From Bremerella sp. P1 (GTDB taxonomy: Bacteria > Planctomycetota > Planctomycetia > Pirellulales > Pirellulaceae), in assembly GCF_028748185.1 (NCBI RefSeq), contig NZ_CP118164.1:992001-1056000 (forward strand): a stretch of 64,000 bases of DNA. The letters are read 5' to 3'. Each line of letters starts with the position of its first letter. Positions within the stretch are counted from its first letter, which is position 1. Both the position numbers and the translations under genes were made by a program. Below are positions 40,530 to 45,691 of the stretch, one piece after another. The notes under the pieces are model-generated. The model was given only the letters and a program-made list of their open reading frames with translations. It was not told the DNA's origin and searched no databases.

Positions 40530-41332
40530 CCACTGAACCCACCAATCCGTTCGCTTCGCCGACGGCCGACATTTCGGCAACCGGCTCACCGGAGGCCGAT
40601 CAGGCGTATCCGATGACGGCGACGGCGATCGCAGTGATTGAGGACGTGCCGGAAACCCATCGTCGAAAGGTCCGCACGTTGGGCATGCGGTTCTTACTGG
40701 GTCTGCCCAACGTGGTGATCCCCATCGGCCTGGGCATCATGTTCTATACGCTCGCTGCATATGGACCAGCTCGGTTCAACCTGGGAGGGAATGCGTCGCT
40801 GGCACTTTTGGTGATAAGCATCACGCTGTTTTTCGCGATGATCTACGTCCTGACCAACGCGTTCTGCCAGGACCGCTGGTGGGAATCACTCCTTCGGAAA
40901 CAAATCGGTAGTCGCCCTGCCCCGTGGGTCTCGCTGGCAGAGCATCCATCCGAGTTCGTTACGTTGACTTCAACGCAGCCGAAGTCGATGGCATCGTTTC
41001 AGCTGGGCTCGAACGAGGCCGAGATCATCGACATCGGCATGCTTCAGTTGGATAAGACCAAGGGAGAAATGGTCATCGAATGCGACGACCGGCGTTACCG
41101 AGTTCCGCGTCGGTCCCTGCTGGCGTGTGACGTGCAGCAAATCAAGCTGCAGTCCCCTTGGACCACCGTCGTCAAAATTGCTTGTCAGACCGACGAAGGT
41201 CCTCACGAGTTCTGCATCTTGCCGGCCGACATCAAGCCATGGCTTGCGTTCACGCAGCGGTACCGCAAGAAACAAGCGGAACGGCTCGCCCATGAAATCT
41301 ACGAATTACCTGAGACGCGTTCAGCCGATTAG
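40526..41332 (+). CDS. NPF-x-SP membrane protein, third of three tandem paralogs
   Basis: This 268-residue protein begins MTTEPTNPFASPTADIS and has YPMTATAIAVIEDVPETHRRK, two transmembrane segments (about 55-80 and 88-112), then FVTLTSTQPKSMASFQLGSN, IECDDRRYRVPRRSLLACDV and VVKIACQTDEGPHEFCILP. It is the most diverged of the three but keeps the same order of parts. Its ATG overlaps the stop of the second gene. Its stop overlaps the stop of the PhoX-like gene by 4 nt on the other strand. Confidence 0.72.
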   Translation: MTTEPTNPFASPTADISATGSPEADQAYPMTATAIAVIEDVPETHRRKVRTLGMRFLLGLPNVVIPIGLGIMFYTLAAYGPARFNLGGNASLALLVISITLFFAMIYVLTNAFCQDRWWESLLRKQIGSRPAPWVSLAEHPSEFVTLTSTQPKSMASFQLGSNEAEIIDIGMLQLDKTKGEMVIECDDRRYRVPRRSLLACDVQQIKLQSPWTTVVKIACQTDEGPHEFCILPADIKPWLAFTQRYRKKQAERLAHEIYELPETRSAD

Positions 41333-42720
41333 AACAACACGTCTTCCCACGGACCGGTAATCGCGAATGTGATTCCAGGCGTCTGAATGTTGGCAAACAA
41401 CCATTTGCCGTCGGGGCTGAATGTGGAACCAGCCCATTCCTTGTCGACGTACGAGCCACGCAGACCGTTGTGCTCGCCGTTGAGGATAACGTTGTTCTCG
41501 GCGAAGTTATTCAGACGACCATCCTTGCTCAGGGTCAGCATCCGCTGTGGCAGCGGGTCTTCGCCGGCGTAGTCGTTGTCTTCGCAGAGAATCAGGCCCC
41601 CTTGCGGGCTGACGCACAGGTTGTCGGGCATGTTCAGCACACGCTTGTCGCGCGATTCGTAAAGCAGCGTGACCGTTTGCTGCTGCGGATCAAACTGCCA
41701 GATCTGCCCTGCCTTGGCACCACCGCCATCGGTCGCATCGAAGTAAATCAGATCGTTCCCGTACCAGCAGCCTTCGAGTCGAGAGAAGGTCGAACCGCCC
41801 AGCTTCTGGCCTTGCTCGAAAACTGTGTCGACCTTGGCATCGGGACTCGTCTTTTCCAAAGCCGGATTGGCAATGCGGTGCCATTTAACCGGGAACGACG
41901 AGCCATCGGGGAAGCCACCACGCAGGTCAGATTGGCCCACGACCTCGGCGATTTCCAGTACACCACCTTCAGCCAATTGCCCTGGCTTGGTGGGACGGAA
42001 GCGATAGAAGCCAGAGCTTCCTCGGTCTTCGGTCAGATACACATAGCCCGTCTTGCGATCGATGGCGACGGCCTCGTGCACAAAGCGGCCCATTTCCTTG
42101 ATCGGTTTCGCCGTCGCCGTTCCATCGGCAGGAACTTCAAAGACCCAACCATGATCTTTTTCGTAGTGGGACAGCTCGTTGCCATTCTCAGGACCGTAGT
42201 CGGTCTCTTCACAGGTCAGCCAACTTCCCCAAGGAGTCACCCCACCGGCGCAGTTACGGACCGTACCGGAAATGGCCCCGTAGCTGGTCAGCCACTGGCC
42301 TCGCCGGGTGTCAAACTCAAGTTGGGTGCAGCCACCGGTCGCCATACGATCGAACGGGGCACCATTTTTGTAATTGAATGCCGGGCCGGGATTGCTCAGT
42401 TCGTGATTCCGCGTGAGCAGCAGCTTATTTCCCTTCTTGCCGATGACGCCCATGCCGTCATGAGCGGCTGGCGTCGCCTGATGGTCGGACATTTCATCGC
42501 CTGTCCAGCCGTACGAGACATAGCGAAACCCTTCGGGCAGCTTTAGCAGCGGCAGGCCAGTCGCTTCATCCTTGATCGGAATCAACGGAGTCGATTGCCG
42601 GGCAGCTTCGCCAAGTGCCGTACGCTCGCCAAAGGTCGAGAGGGCCCCTCCAATGGCGAATGACCCGAATACAGAGAACGTATCACTCAGGAATTCGCGC
42701 CGCGATTTAGGTTCCGACAT
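41329..42720 (-). CDS. PhoX-family (DUF839) exported phosphatase-like protein
   Basis: From ATG 42720 the protein has 463 residues. It begins MSEPKSRREFLSDTFSVFG, a twin-arginine signal, so it should be exported folded. The body is PhoX-like: LLLTRNHELSNPGPAFNY, WGSWLTCEETDYGPENG, IYFDATDGGGAKAGQIWQFD, MPDNLCVSPQGGLILCEDND and STFSPDGKWLFANIQTPGIT. PhoX enzymes are calcium- and iron-dependent alkaline phosphatases, but some family members lack activity; whether this one acts on phosphate esters is not certain. It follows the SMR gene by 111 bp on the same strand. Confidence 0.85.
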   Translation of the reverse strand: MSEPKSRREFLSDTFSVFGSFAIGGALSTFGERTALGEAARQSTPLIPIKDEATGLPLLKLPEGFRYVSYGWTGDEMSDHQATPAAHDGMGVIGKKGNKLLLTRNHELSNPGPAFNYKNGAPFDRMATGGCTQLEFDTRRGQWLTSYGAISGTVRNCAGGVTPWGSWLTCEETDYGPENGNELSHYEKDHGWVFEVPADGTATAKPIKEMGRFVHEAVAIDRKTGYVYLTEDRGSSGFYRFRPTKPGQLAEGGVLEIAEVVGQSDLRGGFPDGSSFPVKWHRIANPALEKTSPDAKVDTVFEQGQKLGGSTFSRLEGCWYGNDLIYFDATDGGGAKAGQIWQFDPQQQTVTLLYESRDKRVLNMPDNLCVSPQGGLILCEDNDYAGEDPLPQRMLTLSKDGRLNNFAENNVILNGEHNGLRGSYVDKEWAGSTFSPDGKWLFANIQTPGITFAITGPWEDVLF

Positions 42721-42831
42721 GTATATGCCCAAAAAGGGATTGTTAAGAAACACCAATGCCAAGAGGCAAGGTACCTAAGGCACAGCCAAGCTGACAAGCG
42801 ACTTCACGAACTCTTAACATATCGTGCGGTA

Positions 42832-43155
42832 TTACGTAGCTGCTGCACTGAACTTCAGCCCAAGAACGGCAATGCCCAGCAAAACCATGAAGAACAAGCG
42901 AAACGGCGAGATCGGCTCGTTCAAGACAGCCATCCCCAAAATGGCGGTTCCCGCCGCGCCCACGCCAACCCAAACGGCATAAGCCGTTCCAATAGGCAAA
43001 TCACGAACAGCAACCGAAAGGAGGTACATGCTACCGACCAACGCGACCAGTGTCAGCGAACTAGGCCAGAAACGGGTAAACCCTTCGGTGTACTTAAGAC
43101 CAACCGCCCAAACGACTTCCAGAAGGCCTGCTGCCAATAGAATCCACCAAGCCAT
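42832..43155 (-). CDS. gdx: SMR-family guanidinium exporter (Gdx/SugE type)
   Basis: This 107-residue protein has four transmembrane helices and matches the SugE/Gdx subgroup of the small multidrug resistance family: WWILLAAGLLEVVWAVGLKY with the essential Glu13, then GTAYAVWVGVGAAGTAILG and a final LGIAVLGLKFS. Gdx proteins exchange guanidinium for protons across the inner membrane. AAAGGAG precedes the ATG. A guanidine-III riboswitch-like element 40 nt upstream supports guanidine as the substrate. This makes it an exporter regulated by its own substrate. Confidence 0.9.
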   Translation of the reverse strand: MAWWILLAAGLLEVVWAVGLKYTEGFTRFWPSSLTLVALVGSMYLLSVAVRDLPIGTAYAVWVGVGAAGTAILGMAVLNEPISPFRLFFMVLLGIAVLGLKFSAAAT

Positions 43156-43195
43156 GATAAGCTCCTTTTCAACGACACGAGGTTTGTTACTTCGT

Positions 43196-43236
43196 GCGTC
43201 GTCTTATCCTGACCGGGTACGGCGCGTCTCGTCCGG
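43196..43236 (-). promoter_or_regulatory. Guanidine-III (ykkC-III) riboswitch-like element
   Basis: On the minus strand this 41-nt element starts CCGGACGAG and continues with GCGCCGTACCCGGTCAGGA, then AAGACGACGC. As I recall the Thermobifida fusca guanidine-III aptamer, the two are the same length and differ at about four positions. The two stems of its H-type pseudoknot can form: CCGG (1-4) with CCGG (21-24), and GCGCCGT (12-18) with ACGACGC (35-41), with one C-A mismatch at 15/38. It lies 40 nt before the start codon of the guanidinium exporter, and a CACGA/TCGTG hairpin and the ribosome-binding site follow. Comparison was made from memory, not by search. Confidence 0.85.
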
Positions 43237-43353
43237 GGCTGTTTGCGTAGCCAACGCTGTCGAGATTATTGTTCGGTAACGAGGTAACAACAAGGTCGGC
43301 TTACCGCACTTGCGATCTTGTTCTCTTCCACCATCCGCAGGGGTACGGACATC

Positions 43354-44322
43354 CTAAAAGTTAGGCGTCGGTGGGCGATACTGCGAAAGCTCGATCGATT
43401 TGAACCAGTCAATCGTCTTCTTGAGGCCATCTTCCAACTCGGTATCAGGTTCCCAGCCGAGGTGTTTCTTAGCCAAGGTGATGTCGGGCTGACGCTGCTT
43501 CGGATCGTCGGCAGGCAGTTCGGTGTAGATGATTTCTGACTTCGAGCCGGTCAGCTTAACGACCAACTCGGCCAACTGCCGGATCGAGAACTCCTTGGGA
43601 TTGCCGATGTTGATCGGGCCGACCTGATCACTGGCCATCAATTTCAGGATGCCATCGACCAGGTCATCACGGTAGCAGAACGAACGCGTCTGCGAGCCGT
43701 CGCCGTAGATGGTAATTGGCTCGCCGGTGAAGGCCTGACGGATGAAGTTCGAGATCACGCGACCATCGTACGGATGCATCCGCGGACCGTAGGTATTAAA
43801 GATACGCACGATGCGAACCTGAACGCCGTTCATGCGATGGTAGTCCATGCACAGAGTTTCGGCAGCTCGCTTACCTTCGTCATAACAAGCGCGGATCCCC
43901 AGCGTGTTGACGCTACCGCGATACGTTTCTGGCTGCGGATGAACTTCCGGATCGCCGTAGATTTCCGAAGTCGACGCAAACAAGTATCTCGCGCGACAAC
44001 GCTTGGCCATCCCCAGCAGATTGATCGAACCCATCACCGACGTCTTCATCGTCTTGATCGGGTTGAATTGATAGTGCCCAGGAGCGGCTGGACAGGCCAT
44101 GTTGTAGATCTCGTCCACCTCCAGCCAAAGAGGATGGATGATATCGTGACGGATAACCTCAAAATTGGGCTCGGACAACAGGTGGACGATATTCGACTTC
44201 TGGCTGGTGAAGAAGTTATCGACGCAGATCACATCGTGACCCTGCGCGACCAGCTGTTCGCAAATTCGCGATCCTAAAAAGCCAGCCCCGCCGGCCACCA
44301 AAATGCGTTTGATCTGAGACAT
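43354..44322 (-). CDS. UDP-glucuronate decarboxylase (UDP-xylose synthase)
   Basis: This 322-residue NAD-dependent SDR enzyme would convert UDP-glucuronate to UDP-xylose in the cytoplasm. It has the N-terminal GGAGFLGS motif (residues 11-18), [15 protein letters not shown] (with the Glu typical of decarboxylating UXS enzymes), YDEGKR (Tyr147, Lys151) and [36 protein letters not shown] is typical of UXS. The ugd gene lies 43 bp upstream on the same strand, supplying UDP-glucuronate, so the two likely form a pathway operon. A plain epimerase is the main alternative. Confidence 0.9.
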
Positions 44323-44365
44323 AGAAATTCAGGCCACTCTCTGTAGTGAAGTCCCAATCCGCGGG

Positions 44366-45691
44366 CTAGGTTTTGGAAACATCGACCGGTCGACGTCCCA
44401 CCGAGAAGTACGTGAACCCGTGCTTTTCCATCGTACCCAGGTCGAACAGGTTACGTCCGTCGAAGATGGTCGGCGTCGTCATCTTTGCCTTCAGCTTCTT
44501 GAAGTCTGGCGTACGGTACTCGTTCCATTCGGTGTTAATAGCCAGACAATCGGCGCCGTCGATGGCTTCCATCTCGCTCTTACAGTACTTCTGGATCTTA
44601 TCGCCGAATTGCGCCTGGACGTTTTCCATGGCTTCGGGATCGTGTACGTGAATGATCGCTCCCTTTTCGACCAGGTAGTTCAGCAGTTCGAGCGCCGGTG
44701 CTTCGCGAATGTCGTCCGTCTTCGGCTTGAATGCCAGCCCCCACACGCCAAACGTCTTGCCGGCCACGTCGCCGCCATAGAAGGCATCAATCTTACGAAC
44801 CAACGATGCCCGCTGATGGACGTTCACGTCGTCGACTGCCCGCATGATCTTGGGCTCGAGTTCCAACGTTTCTGCCAAGGATGCCAACGCTCGAACGTCT
44901 TTGGGGAAACAGCTTCCACCGTAGCCCAACCCAGGAAAGAGAAACTGGAAGCCAATGCGTTGATCGTGCCCCATGCCGATACGTACGTCGTTGATGTCGG
45001 CACCAACCTTCTCACTCAGATTGGCGATCTCGTTGATGAAGCTGATCTTAGTAGCCAACAAGGCATTAGCGGCGTACTTGGTCAGTTCCGAGCTTTCTGG
45101 GCTCATGAACAAGATCGGCTTGCCGGTGCGAACCAGCGGAGCGTGCAGCGTCTGCAGCAGTTCCTCGGCCGCCTCGTTACGAACACCGCAGACGACACGG
45201 TCGGGGTACATGAAGTCCGAGATCGCCGAGCCTTCTTTTAGGAACTCGGGATTGCTCGCCACGTTGACCTCACGGCCACATAGCTTCTTGAGCATGTCGT
45301 ACACTTTGCCGTTGGTTCCGACTGGGACCGTGCTCTTCACCACCACCAAGGCGTCTTCTCGCAGGTGGGGCGCAATGCCTTCGACAACTTTCCACACGGC
45401 AGAAAGATCGGCCGCGCCGCTATCAGACTGTGGCGTGCCGACGGCGATATAAACGAGATCGGCATCCGGAATCACTTCGGCGGCGTTGGTCGTGAACTGA
45501 AGACGACCTTCTTCATGGTTCCGCAAAACCAGTTCGGATAAGCCTGGCTCATAAATCGGAATGATGCCCTTCTTCAGTCCTTCGACTTTGGCCTCATTGA
45601 CATCGATGCACGTGACTTCGTTACCCAAATCAGAGAAACAGGTCCCCGTAACCAGACCCACGTAGCCCGTGCCTATGACTGCTAGCTTCAT
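44366..45691 (-). CDS. ugd: UDP-glucose 6-dehydrogenase
   Basis: This 441-residue enzyme oxidises UDP-glucose to UDP-glucuronate with two NAD+. It has the N-terminal AVIGTGYVGLVTGTCF, KSTVPVGTNGKVYD, ASNPEFLKEGSAISDFMYPD and the catalytic Cys261 in GYGGSCFPKDVRAL. The C-terminal domain has KTFGVWGLAFKPKTDDIREAP. Length fits. The product feeds the adjacent UDP-glucuronate decarboxylase. It is divergent from an MFS sugar porter; the 237-bp gap between them probably carries both promoters. Confidence 0.95.
   Translation of the reverse strand: MKLAVIGTGYVGLVTGTCFSDLGNEVTCIDVNEAKVEGLKKGIIPIYEPGLSELVLRNHEEGRLQFTTNAAEVIPDADLVYIAVGTPQSDSGAADLSAVWKVVEGIAPHLREDALVVVKSTVPVGTNGKVYDMLKKLCGREVNVASNPEFLKEGSAISDFMYPDRVVCGVRNEAAEELLQTLHAPLVRTGKPILFMSPESSELTKYAANALLATKISFINEIANLSEKVGADINDVRIGMGHDQRIGFQFLFPGLGYGGSCFPKDVRALASLAETLELEPKIMRAVDDVNVHQRASLVRKIDAFYGGDVAGKTFGVWGLAFKPKTDDIREAPALELLNYLVEKGAIIHVHDPEAMENVQAQFGDKIQKYCKSEMEAIDGADCLAINTEWNEYRTPDFKKLKAKMTTPTIFDGRNLFDLGTMEKHGFTYFSVGRRPVDVSKT

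Follow-up and report, generated by a model that had tools for sequence, protein, structure and literature searches.

A guanidine-III riboswitch before a Gdx-type exporter gene in Bremerella and a proposed anti-P2 strand for its translational control

A guanidine-III riboswitch stands upstream of a gene for a Gdx-type SMR exporter in the 64,000-nucleotide stretch of the Bremerella sp. P1 genome analysed here (the window), and we consider it likely that this riboswitch acts as a translational ON switch of the guanidinium exporter Gdx by way of an anti-P2 strand. Without ligand, the 3' strand of the aptamer stem P2 (nt 34-41) would be held by the anti-P2 strand near the start codon and, in the genus of the window, this pairing would be extended to a long hairpin in which the spacer between the Shine-Dalgarno sequence (SD) and the ATG is also paired with nt 29-34. 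When guanidine, a toxic compound, accumulates, it would stabilise P2 together with the pseudoknot, so that the anti-P2 pairing would be released and the ribosome would start. The conserved A38 would leave P2 mismatched, so that the anti-P2 strand could compete. We infer both the ON direction and translation as the level of control from sequence; the same direction is proposed in the covered part of the Thermobifida fusca structure paper (PMC5696562), and control at translation, as suggested in an initial annotation of this DNA, is supported as likely.

Results

The aptamer was detected with cmscan as a match to the Rfam guanidine-III model RF01763 at 43260-43193 on the minus strand (58.3 bits, E 1.1e-10), spanning the full model from 1 to 67. 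As the gathering cut-off of RF01763 is 36 bits, the score rules out a chance match as a reading of the aptamer. A whole-genome search returned one RF01763 copy, at the same position. The initial annotation had described a 41-nt guanidine-III element with both pseudoknot stems and had named a covariance-model search as a check; the match above the cut-off and the location of both stems bear this out, and the Rfam model also covers a short hairpin on the 5' side that reaches 43260 (aptamer with hairpin, 43193-43260), where the annotated range had stopped at 43240. In the T. fusca crystal-structure numbering of the covered part of PMC5696562, the 41-nt core occupies 43196-43236, with all strands on the minus strand. 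Pseudoknot stem P1 is fully paired between nt 1-4 CCGG (43233-43236) and nt 21-24 CCGG (43213-43216), and P2, made of nt 12-18 GCGCCGU (43219-43225, C15 at 43222) and nt 35-41 ACGACGC (43196-43202, A38 at 43199), has six of seven standard pairs, the seventh being C15.A38. Against the same part of PMC5696562, the ligand contacts C6, G7 and G17 are all kept, and A5, A8, A19, C20 and G29 are unchanged, including the A5/A19 and C20/G29 partners. The window aptamer would be expected to bind guanidine. The motif GACGA occurs in it twice, at nt 4-8 in the ligand-binding core (43233-43229) and at nt 34-38 in P2 (43203-43199), so that the same leader strand could pair with either copy.

Like the T. fusca aptamer (PDB 5NWQ) and RF01763, the element is a 41-nt H-type pseudoknot with the ligand-contacting nucleotides, and it shares with the class the 5' hairpin of the Rfam model and the position before an SMR gene. 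It differs from T. fusca (locus L066 in our sample), as given in the covered part of PMC5696562, in A38 for G38, A10 C11 for G10 U11 and U31 for C31. The window element is an ordinary guanidine-III member beside the usual gene of the class. Guanidine-II (mini-ykkC) is likewise an ACG-containing element 5' of SMR genes, for which the portion of the literature covered treats translational action as likely, and its fold differs from that of guanidine-III; no guanidine-II match was found in 41000-45000 at E up to 10.

The gdx-type SMR exporter gene (107 aa) lies at 42832-43155 on the minus strand, and its ATG at 43155-43153 is exactly 40 nt beyond aptamer nt 41 at 43196, the distance that the initial annotation had given. 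The protein scores 96 bits against PF00893 (SMR; cut-off 23.7) and is the sole PF00893 match in a whole-genome search. Its closest solved structure is Gdx-Clo (PDB 6wk5, phmmer E 1e-30 over residues 1-103), with which it shares E13, W16, S42, Y59 and W62 in the alignment; W16 is conserved in Gdx proteins and is Gly or Ala in Qac proteins, according to the covered part of PMC7695847. The NCBI SugE equivalog model NF008512 was the top one among 21 SMR models for this protein (runner-up, 64.7 bits), at 118 bits against a cut-off of 126 that was not reached, and because of this shortfall the exporter is named Gdx-type here and not SugE equivalog. The Gdx/SugE-type exporter proposed earlier is supported as a Gdx-type SMR by PF00893 and W16, with guanidinium export as its putative function.

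The RF01763 element is present in the window genome and in 8/8 same-genus genomes searched, in 16 of 60 relatives (same-genus genomes included) and, with the stock Rfam model, in 38 of 396 sampled genomes of the window's order and 8 of 294 genomes of the phylum. An exact-pattern scan of named genomes gave at least 118 stretches, and guanidine-III loci fall in at least 10 named phyla among the matches listed. With these counts, the planctomycete setting recognised at the outset is supported and the conservation in relatives put forward as a check is found, while the view of this setting as a one-case extension of the class falls away. For comparison, 156 loci were reduced by four with a core outside the search expression (L023, L025, L083, L126) and by 11 repeats to 141 distinct loci, and by a further eight without an SMR match to the 133 that were analysed. 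An SMR gene lies directly downstream of the aptamer in 16/16 of the first relatives' loci, and one with a usable start follows it in 133 of the 141 distinct loci among the matches listed. The order epimerase, riboswitch, gdx, PhoX-like gene is shared by the window and 7 of 8 other same-genus loci, the exception being L014. An SMR relative was found in 58 of 117 sampled genomes of the window's order; 20 of the best 30 such loci came from riboswitch-bearing genomes, and the remaining 10 gave no guanidine-III match, either at the cut-off or at E up to 1.

Several loci in this survey depart from the usual arrangement. At L181:1430-1478 (+), a sub-threshold guanidine-II match (28.3 bits, cut-off 32, E 0.056) lies just 5' of a planctomycete gdx ortholog that lacks guanidine-III; one riboswitch class may have replaced the other here. 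At L050, L086, L093, L097, L124 and L133 (Asticcacaulis), the ORF that follows guanidine-III does not match the window SMR protein. The one tested of these six, L050:6229-7101 (+), is an EamA-type transporter (PF00892, 89 bits), and EamA proteins may represent another type of guanidine exporter. L170 and L183 each carry one in-frame TGA inside the SMR match.

The C-A mismatch at 15/38 that the initial annotation had pointed out is present, and it is the rule in the class. Across the 141 distinct loci among the matches listed, positions 15/38 are C.A in 108, C.G in 14, A.A in 12, U.A in 6 and U.G in 1, so A38 is fixed irrespective of the base opposite. The mismatch as a peculiarity of the window copy, or as a local defect, is ruled out by this commonest state. 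At the 133 analysed loci among the matches listed, nt 38 is A in 119 and G in 14, all 14 of them in Actinomycetota, and the window's A10 C11 is the commonest combination (57/133). When A38 was changed to G in silico at 37 planctomycete loci with C15, P2 was stable in 11 of them compared with 0 before, and leader pairing (at least 4 pairs) was present in 23 compared with 33. In the window the same change had little effect, with leader pairs going from 6.9 to 6.5 and P2 from 0.0 to 0.4. A38 probably weakens P2 and also pairs with the anti-P2 strand.

Strands resembling UCGUC stand immediately 5' of the ATG in many leaders. Complementarity was scored as the longest helix between the aptamer 3' strand and the last 30 nt of the leader, against shuffles, which overstate significance because the sequences are related. 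With nt 28-40, 38 of the 133 listed loci reached a score of at least 6, compared with a shuffled mean of 7.2 and a maximum of 16 in 200 rounds. With one locus per genus label (61 labels, among which some genera may count twice), nt 34-41 reached this score in 13 of 61 against 1.5 shuffled, and nt 4-11 were also enriched (8 of 61 against 1.2). Most other aptamer windows were without enrichment across the 61 labels, the exception being nt 4-15, which share GACGA; the control strands nt 12-25, the reversed 3' strand and its reverse complement were likewise not enriched, and the control nt 1-14 was enriched, as the aptamer holds two copies of GACGA. Leader UCGUC is complementary to both copies of GACGA (nt 4-8 and nt 34-38), and in a direct helix comparison nt 34-41 were better in 28 labels, equal in 14 and worse than nt 4-11 in 19. 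This comparison alone leaves the choice of copy unsettled; the fold model favours nt 34-41. Among riboswitch planctomycetes, 19 of 36 scored at least 6 and 33 of 36 at least 5, compared with 0 and 2 of 10 riboswitch-less planctomycete orthologs, a set that includes L176, whose start is uncertain. Two riboswitch-less loci, L165 and L169, still carry TCGTC directly 5' of the ATG, which may be a relic or a coincidence.

In ensemble folding, with programs that ignore the pseudoknot and triplex, aptamer-leader pairing reached P<=0.05 for 31 of the 61 genus labels (15 of 36 families), most of them planctomycetes or myxobacteria. Riboswitch planctomycetes alone account for 20 of 36 (the Planctomycetota(G) folding row holds 38 loci, including L134 and L149 without a phylum), and there was little such pairing in Actinomycetota (3/19), Pseudomonadota (2/13) and Acidobacteriota (2/7). 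In predicted ligand-free folds, at least 4 pairs between leader and nt 34-41 were present in 41 of 61 genus labels, and P2 itself in 3. Forcing P2 made the SD-ATG region more open, by a mean of 0.118 compared with 0.014-0.043 in five shuffled-leader rounds, and the opening exceeded 0.2 in 39 of the 133 loci among the matches listed compared with 5-12 when shuffled. We read the leader strand near the ATG as the anti-P2 strand of what would be a translational ON switch.

In the window's own leader (minus strand throughout), the proposed anti-P2 strand is GUGUCGUU at 43171-43178, which can pair with nt 34-41 at 8 positions, 2 of these pairs being G-U. A Shine-Dalgarno-like GGAG lies at 43162-43165, and CUUAUC, between it and the ATG (43156-43161), is complementary to nt 29-34 GAUAAG (43208-43203). 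The predicted ligand-free fold is one hairpin, with nt 29-34 paired to CUUAUC, the P2 3' strand paired to the leader and the SD in a bulge; its stability has a z of -3.0, and 1 of 200 shuffles was as stable. By eye, GAUAAG co-occurs with CUUAUC in 4 of 9 loci of the genus (window, L009, L010, L012), and two further same-genus loci combine GGACA with UGUCC (L004) and GGACAA with UUGUCU (L007). Aptamer-leader pairing was not significant for the window leader alone (P 0.11; 0.28-0.37 for L009, L010 and L012), and forcing P2 left its SD-ATG region unopened (mean unpaired 0.53 free and 0.47 forced, with L004 and L006 also falling). For these two reasons, the mechanism is extended to the window leader from its relatives. 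Finally, a scan of 42700-43450 found 0 terminator-like sites, which rules out a transcription terminator as the expression platform, and no promoter-like site just 5' of the aptamer, with 2 weak ones elsewhere.

Discussion

Three other readings of this locus were weighed against the anti-P2 strand. The initial annotation had seen control at translation in a CACGA/TCGTG hairpin between aptamer and ribosome-binding site (43176-43196, minus strand), and this hairpin could itself be the control element, independent of anti-P2 pairing, which we regard as improbable. The hairpin is real as far as the arms go, since CACGA (43196-43192) is complementary to TCGTG (43180-43176) and lies within predicted folds, and both arms are kept in 8/8 aligned genus sequences, the ninth, L014, being outside the alignment. 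As far as seen, however, it is confined to the genus of the window, and other leaders, often 19-24 nt long, are without it. It also does not cover the SD, and no connection with the ligand state is apparent except through competition with the anti-P2 strand: the downstream strand is shared, so the hairpin competes with the pairing to nt 34-41, which we judge the more telling of the two. A degenerate aptamer, or one specific to another ligand, with the mismatch as its sign, is very improbable. This reading could draw on the replacement by C15.A38 of the T. fusca C15-G38 pair, which takes part in a base triple with G10 (PMC5696562, covered part), but most loci among the matches listed have this mismatch (108/141) and the contacts C6, G7 and G17, together with A5, A8, A19, C20 and G29, are those of the known aptamer.

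The remaining alternative, which we hold to be unlikely but the strongest of the three, is that the aptamer acts mainly on mRNA stability, with the guanidine-bound pseudoknot obstructing RNase E scanning, so that an expression platform would be unnecessary. The primary paper behind this model for guanidine-III is reportedly that of Richards and Belasco from 2021. Consistent with it, the aptamer core is invariant within the genus of the window while the leaders diverge; a complementary strand near the start codon, in contrast, is not something that it predicts. The covered part of a J Bacteriol review (PMC12186494) states the RNase E obstacle model for guanidine-III and links the class to both translation and RNase E protection. 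Such protection remains a rival or a partner of translational control.

More tentatively, and with somewhat less than even confidence, we propose that several phyla share one platform, in which a strand beside the ATG stands in for the 5' strand of P2 and pairs with nt 34-41, and in which the near-fixed A38 would have been selected for an imperfect, ligand-dependent P2 and for pairing with a U of the anti-P2 strand. In actinobacteria, from which the crystal structure comes, G38 is frequent and the platform would be absent; the T. fusca leader shows no evident counterpart of the anti-P2 strand seen in planctomycetes and myxobacteria. Both the shared anti-P2 platform and the function given to A38 may be new.

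Planctomycetes are not named for the guanidine-III class in the portions of the literature covered, and guanidine-III control of a guanidine exporter is now firmly placed in this group. The comparative data explain a mismatch that had seemed a defect, and a vague printed statement, that the ribosome-binding site probably becomes accessible on ligand binding, would be replaced by a specific pairing. If the shared platform is true, the textbook actinobacterial example would be the atypical one.
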